The notes beneath the pieces were generated by a model. That model worked only from the letters and a program-made list of their open reading frames with translations, searched no databases and was not told the origin of the DNA. From the NCBI GenBank assembly GCA_021162905.1, contig JAGGXT010000146.1:1-17513 (forward strand): a stretch of 17,513 bases of DNA, in the 5' to 3' direction. Each line of letters starts with the position of its first letter. Position 1 is the first letter of the stretch. Both the position numbers and the translations under genes were made by a program. Positions 2,501 through 17,513 of the stretch are shown in pieces. The stretch is from Candidatus Odinarchaeota archaeon. Lineage in GTDB: Archaea; Asgardarchaeota; JAGGXT01.

Positions 2501-2598
2501 GTAACATCTAAAAATGGGTGATTTGCAATGAATAACTTGTCTTTTCCCAGCTCCTTTAAGCTAAAACAGTGTTATATCAGCCGTTTTTAGATGTTACT
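2500..2598. mobile_element. MITE-like element with terminal inverted repeats
   Basis: The ends are perfect inverted repeats: AGTAACATCTAAAAA at 2500-2514 against TTTTTAGATGTTACT at 2584-2598. Imperfect pairing continues inward for about eight more bases (GG then TGAT on the left arm against ATCA and CC on the right). About 60 unpaired bases lie between, with no coding capacity. The size and long terminal repeats fit a miniature inverted-repeat transposable element. It sits directly at the stop of the secreted protein gene. I see no convincing target-site duplication, so a large hairpin acting as a terminator or RNA element is the alternative. Confidence 0.5.
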
Positions 2599-2668
2599 AG
2601 AGGCGGGAGCGATAAACATAATTTCTTTTTCATTTTTATTATTTTATAGCGTAGGAGGTTATCTTGAA

Positions 2669-3415
2669 ATGGAAAAAAGGTTAAAAATTAAATTTTTAAT
2701 ATTCTTAGGGATTTTAATTTTGGGTAATATCATATTTTTATATACTTTCTATACATCATTTTTACAAGGGCCTCCTATTGAGGTTGGGAGACTTACATTT
2801 ACAGAATTATTTTTGAGCAACACGACAGTTCCTACAAATTATTGGGAAGACATGCACTGTTACGAGACTAATTCTGATAGTGGTGCTTTTCTTACTATAT
2901 TTGAAAGTGGCTTAAGTATTAGACCATATAAATGGTCTATTGTGAAAAGAGGAATCCCTATAACGACAGATGATGATCTGGATCGTTATCTTTACAAGGA
3001 CTTCCCATACTTGAACATGACATATATAAACTTCAGGCTCTGGGTTTTCGACGGCAGGAACGAAACGCTTGTGATAAACTATACTGCGCCCATCTGGAAG
3101 TTCAACGAGAACAACACCGAGTTCCCATACTACTACTCGAAGAAATTAGACTACCAAGTATGGCATGCTGAGGTTTATTACTCATTTCTTAATAAGTCTG
3201 TTAAGGAGATTAAGTTGGTTGACGGAGTTAAAATTTATGTTTTATTCAAGCTTTATGCAAACAGAACAGTAGAAATGGCTAATCACATTTTCCTCTATCG
3301 AATCTTTGCTGGTTGGGCTCTGACGAATTTATTCATAATAACCGCTGTTGCTCTTATTTATATCTACAAGATGGCACCAAGTAATAGAAGGACTGCTAAA
3401 AATGAAAGTTTTTAA
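2669..3415 (+). CDS. Two-TM protein with extracytoplasmic domain, paralog 1
   Basis: No named family recognised. The 248-residue product has an N-terminal signal-anchor helix (about residues 7-30, IKFLIFLGILILGNIIF region), an extracytoplasmic domain of about 165 residues with several N-x-T/S sequons, and a C-terminal TM helix (about 212-235) followed by a basic tail. The start at ATG 2669 is chosen because AGGAGGT at 2653-2659 is well placed; the longer frame from 2591 would begin inside the inverted repeat of the MITE-like element. Its paralog at 3561 has the same architecture. The segment encoded by 2981-3165 is almost identical at DNA level in both genes while flanking parts are clearly diverged. 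It lies just downstream of the secreted protein gene, and the pattern of duplication suggests these two genes formed a unit. Confidence 0.75.
   Translation: MEKRLKIKFLIFLGILILGNIIFLYTFYTSFLQGPPIEVGRLTFTELFLSNTTVPTNYWEDMHCYETNSDSGAFLTIFESGLSIRPYKWSIVKRGIPITTDDDLDRYLYKDFPYLNMTYINFRLWVFDGRNETLVINYTAPIWKFNENNTEFPYYYSKKLDYQVWHAEVYYSFLNKSVKEIKLVDGVKIYVLFKLYANRTVEMANHIFLYRIFAGWALTNLFIITAVALIYIYKMAPSNRRTAKNESF
2981..3165 (+). repeat. Direct repeat, copy A (probable gene-conversion tract)
   Basis: These 185 bases match 3876-4060 with three differences and no gaps by direct comparison (one causes Arg to Lys, two are silent). By eye count the tract is about 43% G+C, against 30-34% in the 100 bases on either side, and it favours codons such as TTC, AAC and GAG. 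The abrupt edges inside two diverged genes point to gene conversion or import of a segment from a donor with other codon use. Confidence 0.85.
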
Positions 3416-3450
3416 ACTATTAGAATCAAGATTATATGAGGAGTTCATTA

Positions 3451-3498
3451 AGACAATACACATTCGGTTATTGGACATACTACTATATGGCAGGATAA
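3451..3498 (+). pseudogene. Remnant of the C-terminus of a second secreted-protein gene
   Basis: Read in frame from 3451, this stretch encodes RQYTFGYWTYYYMAG followed by TAA. The intact gene at 155-2500 ends MYTFGYWTYYYRG. The ten residues YTFGYWTYYY are identical, and the five base differences over those 30 bases all fall at third codon positions without changing an amino acid, so both copies were under protein-level selection before this one was lost. The likeness fades upstream (a Leu is shared a few residues earlier) and a TAG occurs in this frame at 3421. The remnant sits before the second two-TM gene, exactly as the intact gene sits before the first, showing that a two-gene unit was duplicated and most of the second large gene deleted. 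Confidence 0.75.
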
Positions 3499-3560
3499 TT
3501 ATTGATTTTATTTTATCTTTAATTATTTATTATTATTTACTAAACATGGAGGTAATAGCC

Positions 3561-4316
3561 ATGAAAAATGTCTCTCCGAAAGGTTGGCTTCTAATATTTT
3601 TATTGATCATGTTACTGGGAAACCTTACATTTATTTATTGGTTTTACTCCTCGTTCCTAGCCGGTCCTCCTGTTCATATCGGAACGTTGACTTTTATTGC
3701 AGGGGGAACTCGGGATAATGTAACAGCTCCTACGAACGAATGGTGGATCATGCTTTGTGATGAGACGGATAGCTATCAAGTCTATATGGACATCTTTCAT
3801 GAGGGAATATTTATTAGACCGTATAAGTGGTCAATCGTCAAAAGAGGGACACCCATAAACGATGAAAGTGATTTAGATCGTTATCTTTACAAGGACTTCC
3901 CATACTTGAACATGACGTATATAAACTTCAAGCTCTGGGTTTTCGACGGCAGGAACGAAACGCTTGTGATAAACTATACTGCGCCCATCTGGAAGTTCAA
4001 CGAGAACAACACCGAGTTCCCATACTACTACTCGAAAAAATTAGACTACCAAGTATGGCACATAGAGGTGTATAGTGCATTTCTTAGTAATTCTGTATCG
4101 GAAATAAGTTACGAGAAGGGTGTTAAGTTTTACGTATTGTTCAGGATTTATGTAAACAGAAGTATGGATATGGCGAACAGAGTATTCTTTAATGTAATAT
4201 TTCGCAACTATGCTCTGACGAATTTATACATATTTACAATTGTGATTTTTACGTACATTCTCAAAGTATATCGTGAGCCTAGAGCAGTAGTTCGAAAGAA
4301 TAAACACGGCGAATAA
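3561..4316 (+). CDS. Two-TM protein with extracytoplasmic domain, paralog 2
   Basis: Paralog of the gene at 2669-3415, with 251 residues and the same plan: an N-terminal TM helix (about residues 8-28, WLLIFLLIMLLGNLTFIYW region), an extracytoplasmic domain with N-x-T/S sequons, a C-terminal TM helix (about 214-234) and a short basic tail. ATG 3561 is chosen because GGAGGT at 3548-3553 is properly spaced; the frame is open back to 3348 but that part overlaps the first paralog and encodes unrelated sequence. Shared motifs outside the converted tract include IRPYKWSIVKRG and the opening FLxGPP segment, but their codons differ. The role is unknown; export and tandem duplication suggest a surface or membrane complex component. 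Confidence 0.75.
   Translation: MKNVSPKGWLLIFLLIMLLGNLTFIYWFYSSFLAGPPVHIGTLTFIAGGTRDNVTAPTNEWWIMLCDETDSYQVYMDIFHEGIFIRPYKWSIVKRGTPINDESDLDRYLYKDFPYLNMTYINFKLWVFDGRNETLVINYTAPIWKFNENNTEFPYYYSKKLDYQVWHIEVYSAFLSNSVSEISYEKGVKFYVLFRIYVNRSMDMANRVFFNVIFRNYALTNLYIFTIVIFTYILKVYREPRAVVRKNKHGE
3876..4060 (+). repeat. Direct repeat, copy B (probable gene-conversion tract)
   Basis: Partner of 2981-3165: 182 of 185 positions identical, no gaps. It ends abruptly at TGGCA, after which the two genes differ. See copy A for composition and interpretation. Confidence 0.85.
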
Positions 4317-4457
4317 CTACAACCACCTAATAGCTATCTTACTTTTTAGAATCAAATCAGGAGTGATGGGAGGATCTCGAAATCCTTAAAAACCGTGCTA
4401 TAGTTTGAATATTAGACCCTTTAACTGACAATGATTTAACAAGAAACTTTTATGATT

Positions 4458-4961
4458 TCATTCTTTTAAACCTTCAATTATCTTAATATACAACTCAATT
4501 GACATTCTGAATCCAGAAGAAACCAACCTATTAATGATCTCACGAGCGATTTTTTTGGAAATTATTTTTCTTCCGACTGCTAATAAAATGACATATAGAG
4601 TTCCTTTCACATTATATCCAAGGTTTTCAGCAATCTTTCTTGCTGATGCATCATCCATTAATATTAGACTATTTGGATATGCTTCAGCAAGTTTCAAGAC
4701 AGCGATTTCTCCATAATCAAGTTCTTTGAACTTCATCTCACTTCTAATATCTTTAGGTGACTTAACAACTTCAATCCATCCGTCTTTAACAGCGTTCTCA
4801 ACAATTCTTGCATCAGAAAAACCATCTTTTATGCCTCTAATTACAACCTCTTCATAAACTTCCATAGGGATTATAACTTTTTTAAAAAGATCTTTTAATA
4901 GATGTAATCGGTTTACTTTTGCAAGATAGATGAGCGTTGATGCATTTGAAATAATAATCAA
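4458..4961 (-). CDS. PIN-like toxin, DUF3368 family
   Basis: A 167-residue protein with the layout of DUF3368 PIN-domain ribonucleases: an opening strand IIISNASTLIYLAKV (residues 2-16), IPMEVYEEVV (32-40), GWIEV, LDYGEIAVLKLA (81-92) and ILMDDASARKIAENLGY (100-116). Candidate metal ligands are Glu38, Glu85 and Asp103/104. The first acidic position typical of PIN domains is Asn6 here; members with Asn at this site are known to me, so this is not proof of inactivity. The start is TTG at 4961, supported by a GGAGGAG site at 4968-4974 that lies in the end of the upstream gene. The gene follows the UPF0175-like gene after two bases, the usual antitoxin-toxin pairing. Expected role: RNA cleavage held in check by the partner; not shown for this protein. 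Confidence 0.8.
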   Translation of the reverse strand: MIIISNASTLIYLAKVNRLHLLKDLFKKVIIPMEVYEEVVIRGIKDGFSDARIVENAVKDGWIEVVKSPKDIRSEMKFKELDYGEIAVLKLAEAYPNSLILMDDASARKIAENLGYNVKGTLYVILLAVGRKIISKKIAREIINRLVSSGFRMSIELYIKIIEGLKE

Positions 4962-4963
4962 AA

Positions 4964-5266
4964 TTACTCCTCCAACGCTTTAAGATCGCTTTCTAATTCA
5001 GCTTCGCCATATTGTAGTTCGATTTTCTTCTCTTTTAATAGTTCAATCATTGCCCATAGGGATATACCCGCGTATCTTGCTGCTTTCCATAAGGTGAATT
5101 TTCCTTCCTTGTATTTTTTAATTGCAATTTCTATTTTCTTCTCTTGCACACCTTTTGCAAGTATTTCCCTAAGAACATCAGCCTTATCTCTATCCTCCTC
5201 TTCTGCAATTTTTTTGATCTCCTCAATAAGCTCTTTGGGCACACGAACCGAAATTGTAGCTTTCAT
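4964..5266 (-). CDS. UPF0175-family antitoxin with ribbon-helix-helix N-terminus
   Basis: A 100-residue protein. The N-terminus ATISVRVPKELIEEIKKIAE (residues 3-22) has the look of a ribbon-helix-helix DNA-binding strand and helix. The C-terminal half, AIKKYKEGKFTLWKAARYAG (48-67), is the helix-turn-helix-like signature of UPF0175 proteins, which are typically encoded next to DUF3368 PIN proteins, as here. It is expected to bind and neutralise the downstream toxin and to repress the shared promoter. The start ATG at 5266 is preceded by GGAAGG at 5275-5280, and a TATA-like box lies at about 5298-5312. It forms an operon with the toxin, with two bases between stop and start. Confidence 0.85.
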   Translation of the reverse strand: MKATISVRVPKELIEEIKKIAEEEDRDKADVLREILAKGVQEKKIEIAIKKYKEGKFTLWKAARYAGISLWAMIELLKEKKIELQYGEAELESDLKALEE

Positions 5267-7873: not shown

Positions 7874-8236
7874 ATGAAAGATTCTATAAAAATGTGGTGG
7901 GATTTTGCAATAAGAGATTTAAAAGCCGCAAAAAAGAATTATGAGATTGAAGAATATCATGTAGCTGCATTTTTGGCCCAACAATCGGTTGAAAAAGCTT
8001 TAAAAGCATTACTTATTAGAAATACTGGAAGTTTTCCAAAAATACACGACCTAACACGACTTGCTAGGATGCTAAACGCACCAGAAAACATTCTAAGACT
8101 ATGTGCAAGCATCACTCCTGCCTATACAGCAACAAGATATCCAGATGTTTTATCAGAATTTAACAAAGAAGAAGTTGAAAAAATAATAGAGTATGCAGAA
8201 GAGGTGATAAAATGGGTAAAAAGACAGCTAACATAG
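7874..8236 (+). CDS. HEPN-domain protein (partner of MNT nucleotidyltransferase)
   Basis: A 120-residue, mostly helical protein that matches the HEPN (PF05168-type) pattern: WWDFAIRDLKAAKKNYE (8-24), an A-FLAQQSVEKALKALLI helix (32-48), KIHDLTRLARML (56-67) and the closing YTATRYPDV signature (around 90). In paired HEPN-MNT loci the HEPN partner is the toxin or RNase-like component and the nucleotidyltransferase the antitoxin; other HEPN-MNT pairs may act in nucleotide signalling. The start ATG 7874 lies about 30 bases after a good TATA box. The next gene overlaps its 3' end by 25 bases, so the two form one operon. Confidence 0.85.
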   Translation: MKDSIKMWWDFAIRDLKAAKKNYEIEEYHVAAFLAQQSVEKALKALLIRNTGSFPKIHDLTRLARMLNAPENILRLCASITPAYTATRYPDVLSEFNKEEVEKIIEYAEEVIKWVKRQLT

Positions 8237-8535
8237 AAGAGATTAAAGAGTTCCTGAGGAGGATTAGCAAAAAGTACAAAATAAGAAGAGCTATAATTTT
8301 TGGCTCTGCTGCGAGAGGAGAATTCGGAGAGGATAGTGATGTCGACCTCATAATTGTTAGTGATTTTTTTAAAGACAAAAGTCCTTTAGAGAGACCAGTT
8401 CCTCTTTATCTTGAATGGGATCTTGATTACCCAGTGGATTTCATCTGTTATACAATTGAGGAGTTTGAGAAGCTTAAAAAAAGACCAAGCATAGTGAAAA
8501 TAGCATTAGAAGAGGGTATCATATTTGATTTTTGA
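8212..8535 (+). CDS. MNT-type minimal nucleotidyltransferase
   Basis: A 107-residue protein of the DNA polymerase beta-like nucleotidyltransferase superfamily. The active-site loop GSAARGEFGEDSDVDLIIV (about 31-49) has the GS motif and the D-x-D pair, and a third acidic residue appears in YPVDFICY (about 74-81). All catalytic positions are present, unlike the frameshifted relative at 5364-5761. It is expected to modify or bind the upstream HEPN protein, as in MntA-HepT pairs, where AMP is added to the toxin; this is family knowledge, not shown here. A GAGGTG site at 8201-8206, inside the HEPN gene, precedes ATG 8212. Confidence 0.85.
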   Translation: MGKKTANIEEIKEFLRRISKKYKIRRAIIFGSAARGEFGEDSDVDLIIVSDFFKDKSPLERPVPLYLEWDLDYPVDFICYTIEEFEKLKKRPSIVKIALEEGIIFDF

Positions 8536-8717: not shown

Positions 8718-9149
8718 TTATTCAATTAAACTATTAAGCTTTCTCGGATCTACTCTTTTAATCTCAGGAATCTTATCATAAATGTGATCAGTACTTATGA
8801 TTATATTATCTGAACTATCTTTATTAAGTATATGTGCAGCATATATAGCATCGAAAATAGATGTTATATTATAATTTTTCATAATAAAAACCGCGGTTAT
8901 GTAAGTTTCTGGTTTTGGTCTTAAGAATTTAATATTTTCTAAACCAGCAATTTTTACAAAATTTTCCAAAACAATATCAAGATCTACAAACTCTGATGCT
9001 ACATAATAAAGTTCATGAAATATTTCAGTTGAAATCTCTATTGGACGCAGATCTCCCTTCTTGATCAACATTAAAATATTTTCAGCAACTGGTTTTAACC
9101 AGTCTCTTCTTTTAATAAGTGCGATAATTATATCGCTTTCAATTAGCAT
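8718..9149 (-). CDS. vapC: VapC-like PIN-domain toxin
   Basis: A 143-residue PIN-domain protein. The first strand MLIESDIIIALI carries Asp6. Other likely metal ligands are Glu42 or Glu46 (ISTEIFHELYYV), Asp100 (SIFDAIYAAH) and Asp121 (IISTDHIYDKIP), so all four acidic positions of a functional PIN nuclease are present. VapC toxins cleave RNA, often tRNA or rRNA; the target here is unknown. The ATG at 9149 overlaps the upstream antitoxin's stop by seven bases, giving a coupled antitoxin-toxin operon on the minus strand. Length is normal for the family. Confidence 0.85.
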   Translation of the reverse strand: MLIESDIIIALIKRRDWLKPVAENILMLIKKGDLRPIEISTEIFHELYYVASEFVDLDIVLENFVKIAGLENIKFLRPKPETYITAVFIMKNYNITSIFDAIYAAHILNKDSSDNIIISTDHIYDKIPEIKRVDPRKLNSLIE

Positions 9150-9379
9150 CTTCTTGCTTCCCTCTTTTTCAATTTATTAAGAGCCTCTTCCTTAGCTTTC
9201 TGCTCAGCAATTTCTTTGAGTTCCTTTATAGAATGGGGAATATCTATCTCTCTAAATTTTGCTGGAATTGGATATACTAGTAATCCTTTTCCGAATGGGA
9301 TTATTATTGCTCTATCCCCTTTAAAATCAATCTTCGATGGAATATATATTCGTCTCTTGCTAATTTTTACAATGGCCAT
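9143..9379 (-). CDS. vapB: VapB-like antitoxin of the PIN toxin
   Basis: A 78-residue protein. Its N-terminal half (VKISKRRIYIPSKIDFKGDR, residues 4-23, then AIIIPFGKGLLVYPI) resembles the AbrB/SpoVT-like swapped-hairpin DNA-binding fold, with beta strands around IYIPSKI and GLLVYPI. The C-terminal half is a long charged helix (SIKELKEIAEQKAKEEALNK), the usual toxin-wrapping segment. It overlaps the vapC gene by seven bases. GGTGAT precedes the ATG at 9379 on the minus strand, and an AT-rich stretch at about 9403-9422 is a candidate TATA region. Expected to repress its own operon. Confidence 0.75.
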   Translation of the reverse strand: MAIVKISKRRIYIPSKIDFKGDRAIIIPFGKGLLVYPIPAKFREIDIPHSIKELKEIAEQKAKEEALNKLKKREARRC

Positions 9380-9637: not shown

Positions 9638-10306
9638 ATGAAATTTGGAAAAGCACATAACTCTCTGAATACAGTCTTATCGGCAGTTAGTTCTGGATTC
9701 TTATCATATGGCTATGCCCATGTTTTTGAATATCTTGCTTTTGAGTATTTTTTTGGTCCGGAGCTTATTGTACCCAAAAACTACTATATGTATGTTCTAT
9801 TCTTTTCAACTGTAATAGGACTTTTGAGCTGTGCTCCCTTTTTAGGTAAGCGTATTAGCAATGATGATAAGAGTTCTATAGAAAAAAATAGTTATACTTC
9901 GAAAGTACTGCCTTCAATAATCATTTTTATATTGATTGCCACTTTTGCTGCCTCTTACTACAACAGTGCATTCTTTTTGTTCACTCTTCCCTCTCTAATG
10001 TGGATTCCCTTCTATATTATCATATGTGTGTTTCTCTGGATTAGGTGGTATGCGATCTTCCTAACTCAAACAACTATTGCATTACATTTACTAAAGAAGA
10101 AAAGTTTACTGTATTACTCATTTCACTCAATATTTCTTATAATAAGCGGCTTTGCTGTAACGTTTCCATTGATATTCGAGTTTTTCTCCCTTCCCACACA
10201 CCTAGCGTATTTAACAGTAAGGCTTGCTGTATATATTTTTACAGCTATTTGTCTCTTTTTTGCAGCAATTAAAATAACGAAGAAAATCAATAAAATGATA
10301 ATTTAA
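9638..10306 (+). CDS. Multi-pass membrane protein of unknown function
   Basis: About 222 residues and very hydrophobic. Hydrophobic segments occur around residues 47-66 (YVLFFSTVIGLLSCAPFLG), 90-107 (VLPSIIIFILIATFAASYY), 115-150 (a long aromatic pair of helices), 162-185 (LYYSFHSIFLIISGFAVTF) and 192-213, so five or six TM helices. No catalytic motif or family signature is visible. Three consecutive ATGs (9632, 9635, 9638) exist; the GGTAGGG at 9624-9630 fits best with 9638. The 250 bases upstream are very AT-rich and contain no gene that I can see, so the gene has its own promoter. Confidence 0.65.
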   Translation: MKFGKAHNSLNTVLSAVSSGFLSYGYAHVFEYLAFEYFFGPELIVPKNYYMYVLFFSTVIGLLSCAPFLGKRISNDDKSSIEKNSYTSKVLPSIIIFILIATFAASYYNSAFFLFTLPSLMWIPFYIIICVFLWIRWYAIFLTQTTIALHLLKKKSLLYYSFHSIFLIISGFAVTFPLIFEFFSLPTHLAYLTVRLAVYIFTAICLFFAAIKITKKINKMII

Positions 10307-10435
10307 ATTATTAAGATCTTATGATGTTGCAGAGGTTCTTTTAATTTCAGAATTCATAATTCACTTAAAAATCCCGTAAAAAATAAAAAAGTGGTTATGC
10401 AATGAGTACCGTATAAAGCAAAAGGCTGTGAAGCT

Positions 10436-10741
10436 ATGAATGAAAGAGGAGAAAAATTAGAAATAATCCATCATAAGAAATCACAAAGGTTTTTTATAAA
10501 GCTCGGGCCAGGAAAGGCATCATACTTGAAATATAACGTGCAGGGAAATGTTATGAACATAGATGCCACGTATACACCTGAAGAGTTTAGAGGGCGAGGA
10601 CTTGCTGGAAGACTAATGGAAGAGGCTATAAAATTTGCAAGAGAGAACAGATATAAAATAAAACCAAATTGTAGTTACGCAGTCTATTATTTCAAAAAGC
10701 ATCCCGAGCATAAGGACTTGCTTGTAGAGGAAATAGAGTAA
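10436..10741 (+). CDS. Small GNAT-like acetyltransferase (YjdJ/NATD1-type)
   Basis: A 101-residue protein matching the short GCN5-related family that includes YjdJ and human NATD1. The acetyl-CoA loop is seen in TYTPEEFRGRGLAGRLMEEA (about 42-61), with R-G-R-G-L-A in the Q/R-x-x-G-x-G/A position. The C-terminal part PNCSYAVYYFKKHPEHKDLL (about 75-94) holds the family's closing motif, with C-x-Y, F-x-x-H-P-E and the final leucine pair. The substrate is unknown. The gene has no clear operon partner: about 130 bases separate it from the membrane protein before it and about 90 from the superoxide reductase after it. The ribosome binding site is weak. Confidence 0.8.
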   Translation: MNERGEKLEIIHHKKSQRFFIKLGPGKASYLKYNVQGNVMNIDATYTPEEFRGRGLAGRLMEEAIKFARENRYKIKPNCSYAVYYFKKHPEHKDLLVEEIE

Positions 10742-10778
10742 CAATAGCTGATTTTACTTCATACTTTATTAACAAAAA

Positions 10779-10790
10779 TTTTATTTAAAG
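10779..10790 (+). promoter_or_regulatory. Putative TATA box of the superoxide reductase gene
   Basis: TTTATTTAAA preceded by A-rich sequence lies about 45-50 bases before GTG 10831; transcription would begin near 10810, just before the GGGGGT site at 10819-10824. Confidence 0.45.
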
Positions 10791-10830
10791 TTGCGTTTAA
10801 AAGATTGCCAAAAAGATAGGGGGTATTGAT

Positions 10831-11190
10831 GTGGCTGAAAAGTGTGTTGAGCCCATCGTTGTTCTGAGCAAAAAGGCAGAATTAACAGAATATGAGAAAA
10901 TGCACAAGCCCATCATTAAAATTCCTGATAAGGTAAAAAGCTGTGAGCCATTTGAGGTGAAAATAAAAGTTGGTGAAATACCTCATCCCAATACATTTGA
11001 GCATTATATCGTTTGGATAGACCTAATTTTGGATGATCATTTTCTGTCTAGAGTTATGTTTGTGCCGATTATTATGGAGCCAGAAGTAACGTTAAAAATA
11101 AGAGTCGGAAAGAATGCAAAGCTAAAAGTGATAGCAAGATGCAATATTCACGGACAGTGGGAAATGGAAAAGGAAATCCGTGTAGAATAG
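10831..11190 (+). CDS. sor: Superoxide reductase (neelaredoxin/desulfoferrodoxin family)
   Basis: A 119-residue one-iron superoxide reductase, which reduces superoxide to hydrogen peroxide in the cytoplasm without making oxygen. The iron ligands of the family are all visible: His25 (EKMHKPII), His52 and His58 (GEIPHPNTFEHYIVWI, 48-63), and Cys104 with His107 (ARCNIHGQWE, 102-111). There is no N-terminal rubredoxin-like Cys4 domain, so it is the short class. The Glu-Lys next to the first His in the well-studied Pyrococcus enzyme is here separated by an extra residue (E-K-M-H), so the usual sixth-ligand Glu may be shifted. The start is GTG, supported by GGGGGT at 10819-10824. It converges with the minus-strand gene that ends at 11204, leaving 13 bases for two transcription ends. 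Confidence 0.92.
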   Translation: MAEKCVEPIVVLSKKAELTEYEKMHKPIIKIPDKVKSCEPFEVKIKVGEIPHPNTFEHYIVWIDLILDDHFLSRVMFVPIIMEPEVTLKIRVGKNAKLKVIARCNIHGQWEMEKEIRVE

Positions 11191-11203
11191 CATGATAGCT
11201 TCT

Positions 11204-12424
11204 TTAGGTAGTATTAATTTGCCGTTTCTCTTCCAGTGCCTTTGCAACCTCCTTTTTAAATATATTTAATTCTTTTCTTGGTTCTGATACCCTTATTAAT
11301 ATGAGTATTAAGCCAAGTATTATAAGCAGAGGCAGACTCCAAAATAAAGGATCATCCTTAAAAGTTGTCGCTATTAAGACTCCAAGAGTAAAGCTCACTA
11401 ATGAAATAACAGTTGGTGTTACTGGGCTTAAAAAATTTAAAGACCCAATTTCATCCAGTTTTGGTAATACGCATATCCACATTAGGAATACAAGTAATAT
11501 TGCTGTTGATACTAAAAAGAACACTATAAGAGTAAGAACTATAATTTCACTATCCAAAGTAATGAACCAATGTACTGCAAGGATTCCTAAGACAAGTCCT
11601 ATTATTGATAAACTTAACCATAACCTATAATATGCATCTGAATATTTCTCAATCCTAGTTAAAGCTTTCTCTAAAGCTTCATACAAGTCAATACTTTGAA
11701 GTCTCCTATTCTTAATATAAAGACCAAAGAATACAGCAGCTGCTAAAAATGGAATCATCCCGATTATTCTTAAAGTGGTTTTACTTGATACTTCTTGAAC
11801 AAAAATAAAGTTCTTTCTCCCGCCCCAAACCAAGAATAAAGATTCTTTATCACCGCCTTTGGTTACGGTTATATTATATCCATCAAGCCAGCCATCTTTC
11901 TTTATGGAGATATATAGATATACCTTAGCATCAGCAAGTGAGAATTCTAAATACCAATCTATTATATCCGCAATGAGATAGTGTTTATACCTAAAACTGA
12001 CGTTTTCTAATGCTTGCAGCTCTTTTTCAACACTATCGAAATTCTTAGGGAAAAATATAGGCAGAATATACCTTTTAATTCTATTAAAACTCTTATTATC
12101 AACTGATACGGAGAGATTATAAGGCATCTTAAAGTTCACAATTCCAAGAGCTATGACCCTTGGTTCCAGTGTGGCTATCTTACTATCAAGCTTGATATAA
12201 ATCTCTCTGGACAAATCCAGTTTGTATTCTCTAGCAATTTCATCTACTATCGTATGCTTAGTCCCATTACAGATTTCTTTAACCTCAAGTTTTAGCGTGG
12301 ATCCAATGTCATATAGCCAAATTACATCACTTGACAATTCATTGTATTTTATAGTCGTAAAGGTAATTCCGATTATGAAGAATATAACTGCTAAAGTTTT
12401 GTATTTCCGCAATTTATTCTTCAT
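11204..12424 (-). CDS. Six-TM membrane protein with extracytoplasmic domain, unknown function
   Basis: A 406-residue protein not assignable to a named family. An N-terminal TM helix (about residues 9-26) is followed by about 180 residues of predicted extracytoplasmic domain. Then come TM helices near 213-235, 265-288, 292-318, 330-350 and 357-380, with a charged segment between the second and third (YEALEKALTRIEKYSDAYYR). The tail is basic and charged. The start ATG 12424 has only a weak GGGT upstream. Its start faces the exonuclease gene with about 215 bases between, and its end faces the superoxide reductase gene. Confidence 0.7.
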   Translation of the reverse strand: MKNKLRKYKTLAVIFFIIGITFTTIKYNELSSDVIWLYDIGSTLKLEVKEICNGTKHTIVDEIAREYKLDLSREIYIKLDSKIATLEPRVIALGIVNFKMPYNLSVSVDNKSFNRIKRYILPIFFPKNFDSVEKELQALENVSFRYKHYLIADIIDWYLEFSLADAKVYLYISIKKDGWLDGYNITVTKGGDKESLFLVWGGRKNFIFVQEVSSKTTLRIIGMIPFLAAAVFFGLYIKNRRLQSIDLYEALEKALTRIEKYSDAYYRLWLSLSIIGLVLGILAVHWFITLDSEIIVLTLIVFFLVSTAILLVFLMWICVLPKLDEIGSLNFLSPVTPTVISLVSFTLGVLIATTFKDDPLFWSLPLLIILGLILILIRVSEPRKELNIFKKEVAKALEEKRQINTT

Positions 12425-12498
12425 GCTTGAGTACCCTTACGAAGATTTTCCATTACTATTATCATAATCTCAGCATAAATAATATTTTCTTCTTTAAG

Positions 12499-12517
12499 TG
12501 GTATTGGTTGAATACCA
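12499..12517. promoter_or_regulatory. Inverted repeat in the divergent promoter region
   Basis: TGGTATT and AATACCA form a perfect 7-bp inverted repeat around a five-base centre, between the divergent starts at 12424 and 12639. It could be an operator; with no known regulator nearby this is weak. A TATA-like TTTAAAGTTTATT at about 12558-12570 would serve the exonuclease gene. Confidence 0.3.
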
Positions 12518-12638
12518 AAATAGTACTTTTAATACTCACTCTCATCTCTTCTTTTCATTTAAAGTTTATTAGCTAGTGAATCTATAAAACAATCAATCAA
12601 CTTTGATTTTTTACATGATTCCAAAAGAGATGAACGCG

Positions 12639-13487
12639 ATGATTTGGAAGATCCTTTCTTGGAACGTAAATGGGTTTAGAGCCGTGATGAAAAGAGGTTT
12701 CATCGAATTTATGAAGAAAGAGAGACCTCATGTAATCTGCTTGCAAGAGATTAAGCAACATATAGCACCCATGTCTTTAGGGCCAGGTCTTGAAGATTAC
12801 TTGATTTATTGGTATCCAGCAGAAAGAAAGGGATATGCCGGGACTGCAGTCCTTACGCGGATAGAGCCAAAATCAGTAAAATACGGATTTGGTGAAAAAA
12901 TTGCTGATAGTGAAGGAAGAGTTATCACACTGAGCTATGATAAGTTCTATCTAATTAACGTTTATTTTCCAAATGCACAAAGAGGATTGACAAGGCTCGC
13001 ATATAAACTCGAGTTTAATGAAAAGTTTTTAGAATACCTAGAAACGTTAAGAAAAGAAAAGCCACTAATAGTTTGTGGTGATTTTAACGTAGCACACAAA
13101 GAGATAGACTTGGCCAGACCAAAAGATAATGTTAGAAATGCAGGCTTTACTCCAGAAGAAAGGAAATTTATGGACAAGCTATTGAGCAAAGGGTATATTG
13201 ACACATTCAGACATTTTCATCCAGACGAACCTGGACATTACACTTGGTGGACATATAGATTTAGTGCAAGAGAAAGGAACATAGGTTGGCGTGTCGATTA
13301 TATAGTGATTACTGAAGATTTGCTTCCAAATCTTAAAGATGCATTTATACTGAAAGATGTTTACGGTTCGGATCATGCACCTATCGGAATACTAATTGAG
13401 CTTGAAGATAAAATGGAAAAAATACAGAAAAAGAGAACAGTCGAAGAGGTAATTGAATTTATTAATGCTTTTGCCAGTTGCACCTAA
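12639..13487 (+). CDS. xth: Exonuclease III-family AP endonuclease
   Basis: A 282-residue member of the exonuclease III/APE1 family, which cuts DNA 5' to abasic sites in base excision repair. Family motifs in order: KILSWNVNGFRA (metal/DNA-binding Asn, residues 4-15), ICLQEIK (catalytic metal Glu, about 33-39), KGYAGTAVLTR, the GDFNVAHKEIDLARPKDN block with the D-x-N pair (about 147-164), YTWWTYR, GWRVDYIVI, and SDHAPIGI with the catalytic His (about 245-252). The start is taken at ATG 12639 (MIWKILSW), which matches the family's beginning; the frame is open upstream from a TTG at 12603 with two more ATGs at 12615 and 12630. A charged helical tail of about 28 residues follows the usual end, making it longer than typical 255-260-residue members. 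Confidence 0.93.
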   Translation: MIWKILSWNVNGFRAVMKRGFIEFMKKERPHVICLQEIKQHIAPMSLGPGLEDYLIYWYPAERKGYAGTAVLTRIEPKSVKYGFGEKIADSEGRVITLSYDKFYLINVYFPNAQRGLTRLAYKLEFNEKFLEYLETLRKEKPLIVCGDFNVAHKEIDLARPKDNVRNAGFTPEERKFMDKLLSKGYIDTFRHFHPDEPGHYTWWTYRFSARERNIGWRVDYIVITEDLLPNLKDAFILKDVYGSDHAPIGILIELEDKMEKIQKKRTVEEVIEFINAFASCT

Positions 13488-13643
13488 AAGGACTGCTCAA
13501 AAATTGCTAAGAGATGATCACGATACTCTCTAATCAGTTTAATTTTTTATCGATAATGTTTTGGCAATGGTACGCTTTACACTTAGCTGAGAAACAACTT
13601 ACTTTCTCTAAAATTTATTTACCTTTTGATTGATTTACTTAAT

Positions 13644-13653
13644 CATATATATG
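13644..13653 (+). promoter_or_regulatory. Putative TATA box before the FtsZ-like gene
   Basis: CATATATATG lies about 57 bases ahead of the Shine-Dalgarno site at 13701. Transcription would start near 13675, giving a leader of about 40 bases. Confidence 0.35.
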
Positions 13654-13700
13654 AACTTACAATGTTTAATTTCATACCCCAAGACAGATAATTTTAGAGA

Positions 13701-13709
13701 AAGGAGAGG
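13701..13709 (+). promoter_or_regulatory. Strong ribosome binding site ahead of a non-ATG start
   Basis: AAGGAGAGG lies six bases before ATA 13716. No ATG, GTG or TTG occurs in the downstream frame until TTG 13794, which has no such site in front of it. The position of this site decides in favour of a start near 13716. Confidence 0.55.
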
Positions 13710-13715
13710 AAGAAA

Positions 13716-14507
13716 ATAAAAAAACAGATTTTTAACGTAATTGGTGTTGGAACTGAGGAATTTTTAAAGGTTCTCAAAAGAGAAACTAAAAAGTTGTCAG
13801 TCAAAGTGACACTGAGTTTTATCACGTTGAATCAAAGAGACTTAACTACTTACAAAGAGTCTATTTTAGAAAAGATTATAACATTTGTTAAGAGGAGCGA
13901 AGAAAACACCGAAAAATATGTAATTATGGTAATTGAACAGGTACCTAGTAACTTTAATAGGTTTACGGATGAATTAGACAGCTTTTTGAAAGAAATAGGG
14001 GTTCATTTTATTGCAATAGTACCTAAAAGCAAGTTGAAGAATGTTAAGAACCTTTTTGAAAGACTTGAACACAAAGACTACATTTTCTTGATTACCTTGG
14101 ATGATGAGCAGATAGGGGATAACTACGAGGGGATTTTTAGGTGTTTGCGATTCATTATTGATTTTTATCACATAGAACATTTAAACATCAGCATTGACCT
14201 CCATACTTGTGGTTCTTTCGGTCGCAACGAGTACTGGAACTACTACGGCAGAATCCTAGTTGATGAGAAAGAAAACATTTCTAAGGCATTAAACATCATT
14301 AGAAGCAAGATTGAAAATATTAAGGAAATCATAGCTGTTTTTAGAGTAACCAAAAAAACGAAACTACAAGATGTCCGCGACTGGTTAGACAAATTTGCAG
14401 ATATTATCGATGAGAAAGAAATACCATTTACATGGGCTGCAATAGTAAGTGATCAGATTGAGAAAGAATCAATAGAGCTTATGGGCTTAGAAAAAGTGAA
14501 TATATGA
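13716..14507 (+). CDS. Probable divergent FtsZ/tubulin-fold protein lacking the GTP-binding signature
   Basis: No direct family match is certain, but the element order follows FtsZ (numbering from ATA 13716). Residues 4-12, QIFNVIGVG, occupy the place of FtsZ strand 1 and T1 loop. FITLNQRDL (35-43) aligns with the AINTDAQxL strand. KYVIMVIEQ (67-75) fills the place of the strand before the GGGTGTG loop, which is replaced by VPSNFNRF. EIGVHFIAIVPKSK (93-106) matches the strand after it, and LITLDDEQI the IPN-x-x-L position. In the C-terminal half, NISID, YYGRILVDEKENISKAL, IIAVFRVTKKTKLQDVRDWL (205-224) and IPFTWAAIVSDQI (236-248) follow FtsZ's NVDF, GIGEA..RAxxA, ALINITGGxDLTLxEV and IIWGAxID pieces. 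At 263 residues it is nearly the size of the FtsZ core. Loss of the glycine-rich loop suggests it does not hydrolyse GTP and may be a regulator or scaffold. The start is uncertain: ATA 13716 after a strong ribosome site, or TTG 13794. Confidence 0.5.
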   Translation: MKKQIFNVIGVGTEEFLKVLKRETKKLSVKVTLSFITLNQRDLTTYKESILEKIITFVKRSEENTEKYVIMVIEQVPSNFNRFTDELDSFLKEIGVHFIAIVPKSKLKNVKNLFERLEHKDYIFLITLDDEQIGDNYEGIFRCLRFIIDFYHIEHLNISIDLHTCGSFGRNEYWNYYGRILVDEKENISKALNIIRSKIENIKEIIAVFRVTKKTKLQDVRDWLDKFADIIDEKEIPFTWAAIVSDQIEKESIELMGLEKVNI

Positions 14508-14561
14508 CAATGTTTAAAAAGAGCTTTTCTAACCATCCTTAATTATTACCAGAATGAAAAA

Positions 14562-14577
14562 CCTATCTTTCGATAGG
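14562..14577. other. Perfect 6-bp hairpin after the FtsZ-like gene
   Basis: CCTATC and GATAGG pair around the loop TTTC, about 55 bases after the stop at 14507. It may be a small structured element in the 3' region; its role is unknown. Confidence 0.4.
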
Positions 14578-14590
14578 ATGCATTGCGATG

Positions 14591-14624
14591 TATTGCTTTT
14601 TATATGAAGAATTAAAAAGCAATA
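14591..14624. terminator. Perfect 12-bp stem-loop in the intergenic region
   Basis: TATTGCTTTTTA at 14591-14602 is perfectly complementary to TAAAAAGCAATA at 14613-14624, with a ten-base loop. With T runs on both strands it could act as a bidirectional transcription terminator between the FtsZ-like gene and the FG-GAP gene. A relic of a small palindromic element is an alternative. Confidence 0.45.
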
Positions 14625-14661
14625 GGTAGTGTATGCTTAGGAAAAATAGCATCATCCCCAC

Positions 14662-14672
14662 TAAATATATAA
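14662..14672 (+). promoter_or_regulatory. TATA box before the FG-GAP protein gene
   Basis: TAAATATATAA lies about 30 bases before ATG 14697. It overlaps the approach to ATG 14673, which would be upstream of any start site about 26 bases on, so it argues for a later start codon. Confidence 0.5.
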
Positions 14673-14696
14673 ATGATCTTGGAATTATTAGATTTG

Positions 14697-16265
14697 ATGA
14701 CAGTAGTTATACCCTTAATGTGGATGGGGACCAACATTAATGGGGATTTTAGGAAAAAACTTTTTAGTATATGCGTAATTAGTGTATTTTTAAGTGCTGC
14801 GGTAGCGTTAATCCTTCTTAATGAAACTCATACATGGACACCTTTACATTTACAAGTCAAGCTAACGGAAAGCAAACAAGTTCCAATACACAGCCAAGTT
14901 TTATTCATAAATGATGTAGATGGTGATGGAATTCAAGAAGTTGCGGTACTAAATAATAAAAAAATAATAGAAGTGTATACAATATCATCGTTGGACAGCC
15001 CTATCCTGACATATAACATCTCAAAATACATTACGAAAGCACATAATCTTAATGCAAAGGTTATTGACGTTCAAGGCACAAGTATGTTGGTAGTAGTAGG
15101 AGCATCCTTCGTTAATGAAACTCATGAGGCTCTGCAAATTTTATGCTACTCAATTCAATCTAGTGATAGCCTTTTATGGCACTTTGAGAAAACCTTTCAA
15201 TACTCTGTAAGCTATACCTTTGCTGATATCAACAATGATTCTGTAGAGGATGTGATTGCTGCCACGCCATTTTCTGTCTTTGTTATAGACTTAAAAGCTA
15301 GACAATTGCTTTGGGAAAGAAACGTAGACTACGATGATATATCTAATATTGTTTTAGTAGGCGATGTTGATGGAGACAAAAGAATTGAAATAGTAAGATG
15401 CTCAGAAAATCTTATCTATGTACTTTCTAGTGATGATGGGAAGATACTATCAAAGCTGAAGTTTGGAACTCTTGATGAGAAGTATGATTATTTTTCGGCT
15501 ACAATATATGATATTAACAATGATGGTGCTGAAGATGTGATCTATGCAAGAGAAGGCAAGGGTATTTATGCAATTAGTTTTTCTAAAAATAATATCAGGG
15601 GTATGTCGTGGGGATTTTTATGGAGCCTTTCACTCTCAGTAGCACCCATGAAAGTATCTGTCTATAGGGACACAGAAACCTATGTTTATGTGCGTAGTTG
15701 TGGAAAAATTAGCGTTATCAATGCTCAAAGTGGAGAATTGATATGGAGCAAGGAAATACCATTATACTATGAAACTGTAGATGATATCAATGGTGACGAC
15801 TTGCTAGAACTTGTCAGCGGATACAATAACACCTTTTATTTCATAAGATTGCTTGATGGAACAATTTTGCATAATTTCACTGTTGATCTTAATTACTTCT
15901 TAAACTTAACCTCTCAGAATAAAGAGGACCTAGGAGAAATTCATGATATGAGAGAAACAATTCATACATACACCACATGGACTAAACCAATAGTTATCGA
16001 TTTAAACAACGATTCAAAGAAAGAAATTATAGTTGGAGCTAACATGTTTGCAAAAAATAGAGAAGGTTTGTTTCTTCTTATAATTAGTAGTAATGGTGAG
16101 TTGATACTAAAGAAGATGATTACAAAGAAGCCGATGCAGATGAGAATTTATTACTGTAACACATCGAGTGGAAACATGAAAATCATTATCTTTCTAGAAC
16201 CATTAGACACTTTGTTAAATAAATACAGTGAATTACGAATATATAACCTCACAATTACCCTATAA
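14697..16265 (+). CDS. Membrane-anchored FG-GAP/VCBS beta-propeller protein
   Basis: About 522 residues. After a short basic N-terminus (FRKK) a single hydrophobic helix (about residues 22-41) anchors or exports the protein. The rest is a repeat domain with six calcium-binding type loops: DVDGDGIQE, DINNDSVED, DVDGDKRIE, DINNDGAED, DINGDDLLE and DLNNDSKKE, each following a strand and followed by hydrophobic strands, as in FG-GAP/VCBS propellers related to integrin alpha. Such proteins usually act at the cell surface in adhesion, ligand binding or as parts of larger exoprotein complexes; the partner is not known here. The frame is open from ATG 14673, but the TATA box at 14662-14672 makes the ATG at 14697, or a later one, more likely. 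Confidence 0.8.
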   Translation: MTVVIPLMWMGTNINGDFRKKLFSICVISVFLSAAVALILLNETHTWTPLHLQVKLTESKQVPIHSQVLFINDVDGDGIQEVAVLNNKKIIEVYTISSLDSPILTYNISKYITKAHNLNAKVIDVQGTSMLVVVGASFVNETHEALQILCYSIQSSDSLLWHFEKTFQYSVSYTFADINNDSVEDVIAATPFSVFVIDLKARQLLWERNVDYDDISNIVLVGDVDGDKRIEIVRCSENLIYVLSSDDGKILSKLKFGTLDEKYDYFSATIYDINNDGAEDVIYAREGKGIYAISFSKNNIRGMSWGFLWSLSLSVAPMKVSVYRDTETYVYVRSCGKISVINAQSGELIWSKEIPLYYETVDDINGDDLLELVSGYNNTFYFIRLLDGTILHNFTVDLNYFLNLTSQNKEDLGEIHDMRETIHTYTTWTKPIVIDLNNDSKKEIIVGANMFAKNREGLFLLIISSNGELILKKMITKKPMQMRIYYCNTSSGNMKIIIFLEPLDTLLNKYSELRIYNLTITL

Positions 16266-16433
16266 TTACCTTCAGATATTCATTTGGGCATTACTTTCCT
16301 CTTAGTTAACATATTTTACCTTAAGATAATGATTTAATTCCTTTATCACTATCTACTAGGAATTTAGCTTTCATATAAAGACTCTACAGCATTTTAAAGA
16401 GTTACTTCTAAAGCAAAAATGCCATACTTATTA

Positions 16434-17294
16434 TTATTGATGCTGTTCTGCTTCTTCCTCTAGCTCTATACTAACTTTATCTGATATTACGTTTTTCCAC
16501 CTTGCTGAGATCATTGAAATGCTCGAAGTTAATCCAATCTTATATCGAACTATATGCCTCTCTGTAATCATTGCGAAAAATCCAAGTGCTGGATCAAATG
16601 GCACCCAAATACCATCTAAGAGAAGTACTTCCGACCATGCATGGGGTTCTAATTCGTATGTCTCATTATTTTTAGATTTTACAAAGTATCCCACAACTCT
16701 TCTTGCCGGGATTTTTCTGCCTCGAAGTAATGTGATGAAAACATCAGAGAGTTCATCACAATCACCTTCATAAGATTTAAGAGCTCTTACAGCGCCTAAT
16801 CTAATGTCCATAGGACCCTTTAGCTTGATGTTTTCATTGACGAATTTAAATGCGGCTCTTATGTATTTTAGCGTATCTTCTTTCGTTTCTTTAATTAGTT
16901 TTTCTACAGCACTCTTTATTATCTCATCCTCAGTCTCCCAGTACTGTTGAGGCCTTGTATATATTAAGTATTTTTGTGGGAGGGATGTGAAAAAGGTTGG
17001 ATTGTATACCTTTTTAAGATTAAATGTAAGGGCTTTAACTTCGATCAGACTCTCCATATTTACGATTTTGATACTATTTGGTTTTACTTCTCTGATTAGG
17101 ATATAAGCCATGTTATTCATTTCACTTTTCTTTCGAACTCTACACTTATTATCACATTTTAGAGACAAAACTTTTTGATGATAATCCTCAGTAAAGGTAG
17201 GAATTCTTATTATCATATTAAGGATTCGCTTGTTTGAGGAATTACGGATCCTAATTTTTGTGATCACTTTCCAAGTTGCAATCAATCTGTGCAC
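16434..17294 (-). CDS. Transglutaminase-like (papain-fold) protein
   Basis: A 286-residue protein. The catalytic triad of the transglutaminase-like superfamily is seen: Cys179 in YEGDCDELSDVFITLLR, His218 in LEPHAWSEVLL and Asp234 in WVPFDPALG, with the usual IPAR-VVGY strand between. The N-terminal 95 residues form a beta-rich domain (KVITKIRIRNSSNKRI region) as in other archaeal members. There is no signal peptide or TM helix, so the protein should be cytoplasmic. The family's archaeal and bacterial members are mostly thought to be cysteine proteases or amidases rather than crosslinking enzymes; the substrate is unknown. The start is GTG 17294, with AAGG just before it; a TTTTTATAG box at about 17325-17335 on the minus strand gives a short leader. 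Confidence 0.85.
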   Translation of the reverse strand: MHRLIATWKVITKIRIRNSSNKRILNMIIRIPTFTEDYHQKVLSLKCDNKCRVRKKSEMNNMAYILIREVKPNSIKIVNMESLIEVKALTFNLKKVYNPTFFTSLPQKYLIYTRPQQYWETEDEIIKSAVEKLIKETKEDTLKYIRAAFKFVNENIKLKGPMDIRLGAVRALKSYEGDCDELSDVFITLLRGRKIPARRVVGYFVKSKNNETYELEPHAWSEVLLLDGIWVPFDPALGFFAMITERHIVRYKIGLTSSISMISARWKNVISDKVSIELEEEAEQHQ

Positions 17295-17429
17295 CTTAAC
17301 TTCTTATAAGTCATTGTAAAGGTACTATAAAAATTTTTGCGAACTTTTTATTCGTTTTATAAATAATGTCAGAAGAATAATAATAAAAATATATTAACTA
17401 TAAGTTAAACTCATCTTTCTAAGGAGTAT

Positions 17430-17513
17430 CTAAAATGGTGTATTGCATTTTAGATAACGTTCAAGTATTTGTTTTGCCAACTCAGTACCGCTCGGACTTC
17501 CCCACCATGTCTA
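17430..17513 (-). other. Possible fragment of a minus-strand coding sequence at the window edge
   Basis: On the minus strand the frame ending at TAG 17430-17432 reads TWWGSPSGTELAKQILERYL and a few more residues, which looks protein-like and is richer in G+C than the surroundings. However, the codon at the window edge (17511-17513) is TAG in the same frame and there is no start codon. Another frame, RHGGEVRAVLSWQNKYLNVI, is also open. It may be the damaged 3' end of a gene outside the window, or chance. Confidence 0.25.

Follow-up and report, generated by a model that had tools for sequence, protein, structure and literature searches.

An extremely rare archaeal orphan protein whose sequence likeness to FtsZ is no stronger than chance

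The gene at positions 13716 to 14507 of the window (the whole 17,513-nucleotide stretch of archaeal DNA that we analyzed) is very likely real but extremely rare. We regard its product as an orphan alpha/beta protein, most likely a non-catalytic binding protein, and hold this reading with middling confidence; that it binds a partner is an inference alone. The original prediction had described a degenerate FtsZ/tubulin-like protein, and we found that its likeness to FtsZ, judged by sequence, is no stronger than chance. Given the FtsZ ranks in structure searches and a score against Ras proteins, the orphan protein may yet be recognized as a known fold.

Results

A real gene with one close relative

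The gene is very likely real because a relative, P0002, shares 79% identity with the orphan protein across an alignment of 232 residues that contains only one gap, of one residue. P0002 is a JGI sequence with 11 member sequences, the longest contig of which has 979 bases. Word-based searches of a database of 5.8 billion proteins returned only the orphan protein itself and P0002 (in one of these searches, scores were computed for the 7994 best candidates only). No relative was found among the genome contigs, viral contigs, plasmids, and phages searched (plasmids and phages by tblastn), and the phage matches were all at E values of 2 or worse. The single match in 10 genomes of the order of genome G001 (E = 0.15, to a protein read as radical-SAM) is due to chance. 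That the frame arose by chance and is no gene is extremely improbable: the missing canonical start at position 13716 and the lack of any family match above cut-off would fit such a frame, but the conservation of the protein in an independent sequence, with that lone gap, argues strongly against it.

Identity to P0002 is uneven along the protein (19 of 20 residues in 131-150 versus 12 of 20 in 231-250). The best conserved stretch includes a predicted helix (residues 138-150) and the start of a predicted strand (158-166):

14106..14207, forward strand: residues 131-164, in which P0002 differs at residues 131 and 153 only

Reading frame and start codon

The frame and the signals around its 5′ end are as follows.

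13645..13651, forward strand: ATATATA, a TATA-like candidate archaeal promoter element, matching what we take to be the archaeal TATA consensus
13703..13709, forward strand: GGAGAGG, a Shine-Dalgarno-like heptamer 6 nt upstream of ATA 13716
13716..14507, forward strand: open reading frame encoding the orphan protein, 263 residues long when the ATA codon is counted as the first
13794..13808, forward strand: TTG 13794 and GTG 13806, the first two canonical start codons in frame, counted from the 5′ end

The frame closes with a TGA codon ending at 14507. The 263-residue reading begins with the ATA codon at 13716, a non-standard start on which its residues 1-30 hinge; the first ATG, GTG, or TTG in the frame is TTG 13794. 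The public prediction of the orphan protein, P0001, starts at GTG 13806, and P0002 opens with a valine at the equivalent residue, which may reflect either a GTG start or truncation at a contig edge. The gene may begin at ATA 13716, TTG 13794, or GTG 13806. In the 90-nt extension, GC content at the three codon positions is 0.37/0.20/0.27, as compared with 0.39/0.24/0.38 in the body of the gene; the extension is too short for a decision.

Between positions 13703 and 13718, the Shine-Dalgarno-like heptamer is followed by ATA at the right distance, with no ATG, GTG, or TTG in frame there; the next such codon lies 84 nt further. The heptamer occurs three times on the forward strand of the whole window. 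This arrangement may be fortuitous, or it may reflect a sequence error or an uncommon ATA start.

Genomic neighborhood

The original prediction had the gene standing alone, which is a fair description: it lies 228 nt after the upstream gene and 165 nt before the downstream one.

12639..13487, forward strand: exonuclease III/AP endonuclease, upstream neighbor, best segment 79% identical to contig L001
14673..16265, forward strand: FG-GAP repeat protein, downstream neighbor

The exonuclease III counterpart in L001 belongs to a metagenome-assembled genome labeled as an Asgard group archaeon, a contig that could be misbinned; on this evidence, the window is archaeal and may be related to Asgard archaea. 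When window positions 10000-17513 were compared with 225 genomes of the phylum of G001, matches fell within the exonuclease gene only, in 19 of the 225 genomes (two first-look candidates were scored per genome, so further matches may be missed). In L001 (positions 1150-2088 and 3205-5196), exonuclease III is followed by a CRISPR array, with repeats identified by eye, and farther on by Csx1 CARF-HEPN and Csx3 genes. The place after exonuclease III is thus taken by a CRISPR array in L001 and by the orphan gene in the window.

Elsewhere in the window, positions 155-2500 encode a 781-residue protein, apparently secreted (by eye), listed with a TTG start and without a Pfam match at E = 0.01. Two adjacent frames without a known family at 2591-4316, the second of which as listed overlaps the end of the first, resemble tandem paralogs (300 nt at 86%). 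Three probable toxin-antitoxin pairs lie at 4458-5266, 7874-8535, and 8718-9379 (DUF3368, which is PIN-like, with a small partner; HEPN/nucleotidyltransferase-like; and PIN-like, the last two assigned by eye). For desulfoferrodoxin, identity reaches 49% in matches covering most of the protein and up to 58% in partial ones.

Families, motifs, and physical properties

No Pfam match of the orphan protein exceeds its curated cut-off. The best are DUF4125 (E = 0.0096, 16.1 bits versus a cut-off of 25), PPIP5K2_N (E = 0.023), and, in third place, Ras (E = 0.058). The best below-cut-off matches in other collections have E values of 0.059 (NCBIfam), 0.015 (PHROG), and 0.011 (PADLOC), and the best for P0002 among Pfam, PHROG, and PADLOC is 0.014 (PADLOC). 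Searches of PDB sequences yielded no significant relative; the lowest E value was 0.024 for the single-sequence query and 0.66 for the pair.

The GTP-binding loop GGGTG[T/S]G and the T7 motif are given as FtsZ/tubulin motifs in the portion of PMC12583498 available to us. The absence of the glycine loop, reported in the original prediction, was borne out by motif search, which finds no GGGTGTG-type or GGGTG[T/S]G loop in the orphan protein or P0002. Also absent from both are the T7 motif NxDxxD (NxDxxE likewise not seen by eye), the Walker A motif GxxxxGK[ST], and [NT]KxD. The orphan protein has a GRAVY of −0.20, with all 19-residue windows at or below 0.81, and a pI of 6.1, or 5.3 if begun at GTG 13806 (P0002, 5.2).

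Sequence comparison with FtsZ

Six short stretches (residues 5-12, 35-43, 67-75, 93-102, 205-220, and 236-247) had been read as core strands of FtsZ. They are present as letters, but profile scores are at chance level, and the stretches carry no weight as evidence for FtsZ in these comparisons. HMM and profile comparison likewise gave no support for kinship. The Pfam matches listed for the orphan protein and for P0002, which extend to E = 10, include neither PF00091 nor PF12327 (an absence of limited meaning, as HMMER filters discard most weak matches), and FtsZ-type families are not listed for the orphan protein in NCBIfam. The hhalign local score of the two-sequence query against 37 FtsZ proteins from the phylum of G001 was 17.7 and 17.0 in two runs, and 397 other open frames had a mean of 14.8 against that profile (SD 3.0, best 29.5, query 17.0). 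Against 67 FtsZ proteins, the query scored 16.0 and 250 other frames 15.1 (SD 2.9); when the query's own columns were shuffled, 76 of 250 trials reached 16.0. These null frames were six-frame, ATG-started, 225-320 residues long (235-290 in the semi-global comparison below), drawn from loci L001-L080, and unscreened for being genes.

As positive controls against the 67 FtsZ proteins, three single full-length CetZ-like sequences scored 129, 115, and 78; therefore, the profile test has power for whole proteins. When only the C-terminal half was used, these controls dropped to about 40, 23, and 16 (query half, 13.8; 200 other halves, 13.3, SD 2.5), and a protein without a whole GTP site could therefore evade the test. 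In semi-global alignment to the whole 373-column FtsZ profile, the query scored 5.7 versus 4.7 (SD 2.4) for 60 shuffles, and 9% of 150 other frames reached the query; with a second gap setting, it scored 27.9 versus 29.7 (SD 4.9) for shuffles and was reached by 23% of the 150 frames.

Predicted structure and the FtsZ reading

AlphaFold2, run from the two sequences, gave a poor model of the full protein (pLDDT 53.4, pTM 0.51), and the model of the C-terminal half folded alone is also poor (pLDDT 45.5). The model of the full protein alternates helices and strands over the first approximately 150 residues and continues as strand-strand-helix-strand-helix-strand(-helix). A description as alpha/beta with two modules is itself tentative because the models are of low confidence. 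In Foldseek searches, FtsZ ranked first against the PDB for the full model (7ojd, E = 6.5e−3, 233 columns) and second for the C half (E = 0.43).

One reading of these ranks is that the protein is a degenerate member of the FtsZ/tubulin fold, without glycine loop or T7 catalytic motif, which would cap or modulate division filaments and would consist of an N-terminal Rossmann domain, a central helix H7 (about residues 136-155), and a C-terminal FtsZ-like domain. We consider this unlikely. Besides the first rank of FtsZ, the best 50 of 930 matches of the full model (E up to 10) include 25 FtsZ, 1 CetZ, and 1 TubZ entries, and the C half alone draws FtsZ again (14 of its best 50). The succession of secondary-structure elements in the model can be superposed on what we take to be that of FtsZ, and the strongest local match by profile (residues 212-250 or 214-250) lands on the FtsZ stretch TL.EA...WGARVDP. 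However, the E values are at noise level: an unrelated helicase (E = 8.4e−3) and APOBEC3G (E = 9.5e−3) appear in the same list for the full model, and OsmC (E = 0.38) precedes FtsZ for the C half. The query TM-scores of the FtsZ, CetZ, and TubZ entries are low (0.21-0.29), and the many FtsZ chains in the PDB amount to one observation rather than 27. Because its sequence is contained in that of the full model, the C half is not an independent replicate. No entry named tubulin, TubZ, or PhuZ is among the best 50 Foldseek matches in BFVD, a viral library in which several of these matches are unnamed. The frequency with which shuffles equal the FtsZ score, set against the scores of full CetZ-like sequences, also argues against this reading. 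The fold search thus did place FtsZ at ranks 1 and 2, but with noise-level E values and poor pLDDT. On these models, we treat the ranks as a real hint, one that might raise the prior two- or threefold at most. A bolder form of the same idea, which we think improbable, is that the protein is a tubulin/FtsZ-fold subunit shorn of nucleotide chemistry (having neither glycine loop nor T7 motif and a shortened GTPase domain) that would serve archaeal division filaments as an adaptor or static cap and would belong to a pseudo-tubulin family too faint for the profile searches used here to detect.

Likeness to Ras and CARF domains

It is comparably doubtful that residues from about 120 to 263 form a pseudo-GTPase, a degenerate domain of the small-GTPase (Ras/Rab) type that lacks P-loop and NKxD. 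The stretch concerned is a strand-helix-strand that overlaps the best FtsZ match:

14310..14438, forward strand: residues 199-241, best Ras match (not significant), overlapping the best FtsZ match at 212-250

Against 30 Ras proteins from the order of G001, hhalign scored 23.8 for the pair, 24.2 for the orphan protein alone (residues 199-241; 199-239 for the pair), and 21.3 for P0002 alone. The score of 23.8 was reached by none of 250 column shuffles; among 385 other open frames free of a Walker A pattern, 7 reached it. Pfam Ras (PF00071) matches residues 196-251 at 13.4 bits (cut-off, 21.6), and a loose-threshold alignment is collinear across strand 1, the P-loop position, and the later strands. 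A scan of 227 genomes of the phylum of G001 with the two-sequence profile gave weak matches in 27 (E = 0.003 to 0.1; 29 places), from which 20 loci were brought in; 10 of these resemble Ras-domain proteins. All three loci examined with Pfam are Ras (L169, E = 1.2e−45; L178; L186), and 8 of the 20, including L169, carry one protein of about 520 amino acids matched within residues 206-262 (judged by size, range, and alignment). However, the Ras score is not significant because Ras was one of six templates and was chosen only once the genome scan had shown its matches. When frames with Walker A are included, 3.8% of 397 reach it. DUF4125 and PPIP5K2_N outrank Ras in Pfam, and P0002 has no Ras among its Pfam matches listed up to E = 10. 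The signal is a single strand-helix-strand, with the aligned P-loop part nearly without confidence, and in the full model residues 123-128 close the first module as its final strand rather than forming the first GTPase strand (element order read by eye). An unrelated family, Ras, thus outscores FtsZ by profile, but not significantly. Residues 205-247, previously taken as FtsZ-like, read at least equally well as a Ras strand-helix-strand.

At one of the other 10 loci, the same scan aligned residues 121-238 with a 154-residue frame before a flavoprotein-like gene (L168, 1462-1926, reverse strand; 18.5 bits, ungapped over the first approximately 64 residues). This match is probably due to chance, since its E value of 0.003 per genome corresponds to about 0.7 over 227 genomes.

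A CARF-like sensor domain is very improbable. PADLOC CARF models match the orphan protein at residues 172-206 (E = 0.021) and P0002 at residues 21-87 (E = 0.014), but these stretches do not correspond to each other. Against a two-sequence CARF profile, hhalign scored 19.7 for the orphan protein alone and 15.7 for the pair, the latter reached by 57 of 250 other frames; the profile was built from two of six CARF loci and is a weak test.

Discussion

We favor the reading as an orphan, soluble alpha/beta protein of an uncultured archaeon, without the nucleotide-binding motifs that were sought. It would be built of one or two Rossmann-like or alpha/beta modules, would not hydrolyze nucleotides, and would act by binding a partner, either a protein or a ligand. 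The nearly invariant residues 131-164 would be its likely contact surface, even though two sequences cannot separate a binding surface from recent common descent. As the evidence stands, it is one more lineage-restricted orphan. If the FtsZ fold proved true, tubulin-like proteins would persist without any nucleotide motif, and motif-based surveys would miss them. The case also indicates that motif likeness judged by eye, here to FtsZ and at least equally to Ras, needs both shuffle and positive controls.

Comparison with known systems

A limited literature search found no mention of such a protein in the accessible portions of sources including PMC2875224, PMC12583498, and PMC10933270, which says little. 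Ras-superfamily small GTPases (L188-L217 and L169) share with the orphan protein the likeness at residues 199-241, the top of six profile scores for the pair; the likeness is not significant, and the orphan protein differs from them in having neither Walker A nor NKxD. To FtsZ (PF00091 plus PF12327), it is likened by the noise-level Foldseek matches of both models and by a similar element order by eye, and it differs in having no glycine loop, T7 motif, or above-chance profile match. FtsZ-type controls align across 296-325 columns, whereas the orphan protein has 263 residues. The CetZ-like proteins L151, L152, and L154 (the CetZ name is our own reading) have retained glycine-rich loops, and their scores against FtsZ are 78-129, in contrast to 16 for the orphan protein. 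According to the part of PMC2875224 available to us, FtsZl1-type families carry, or were sought by, a GGGTG(S/T)G loop, which the orphan protein lacks. The same source, as far as its available text goes, offers divergent FtsZ paralogs of the FtsZl1 type as a precedent, some archaeal ones being without motifs known as important (PMC2875224).
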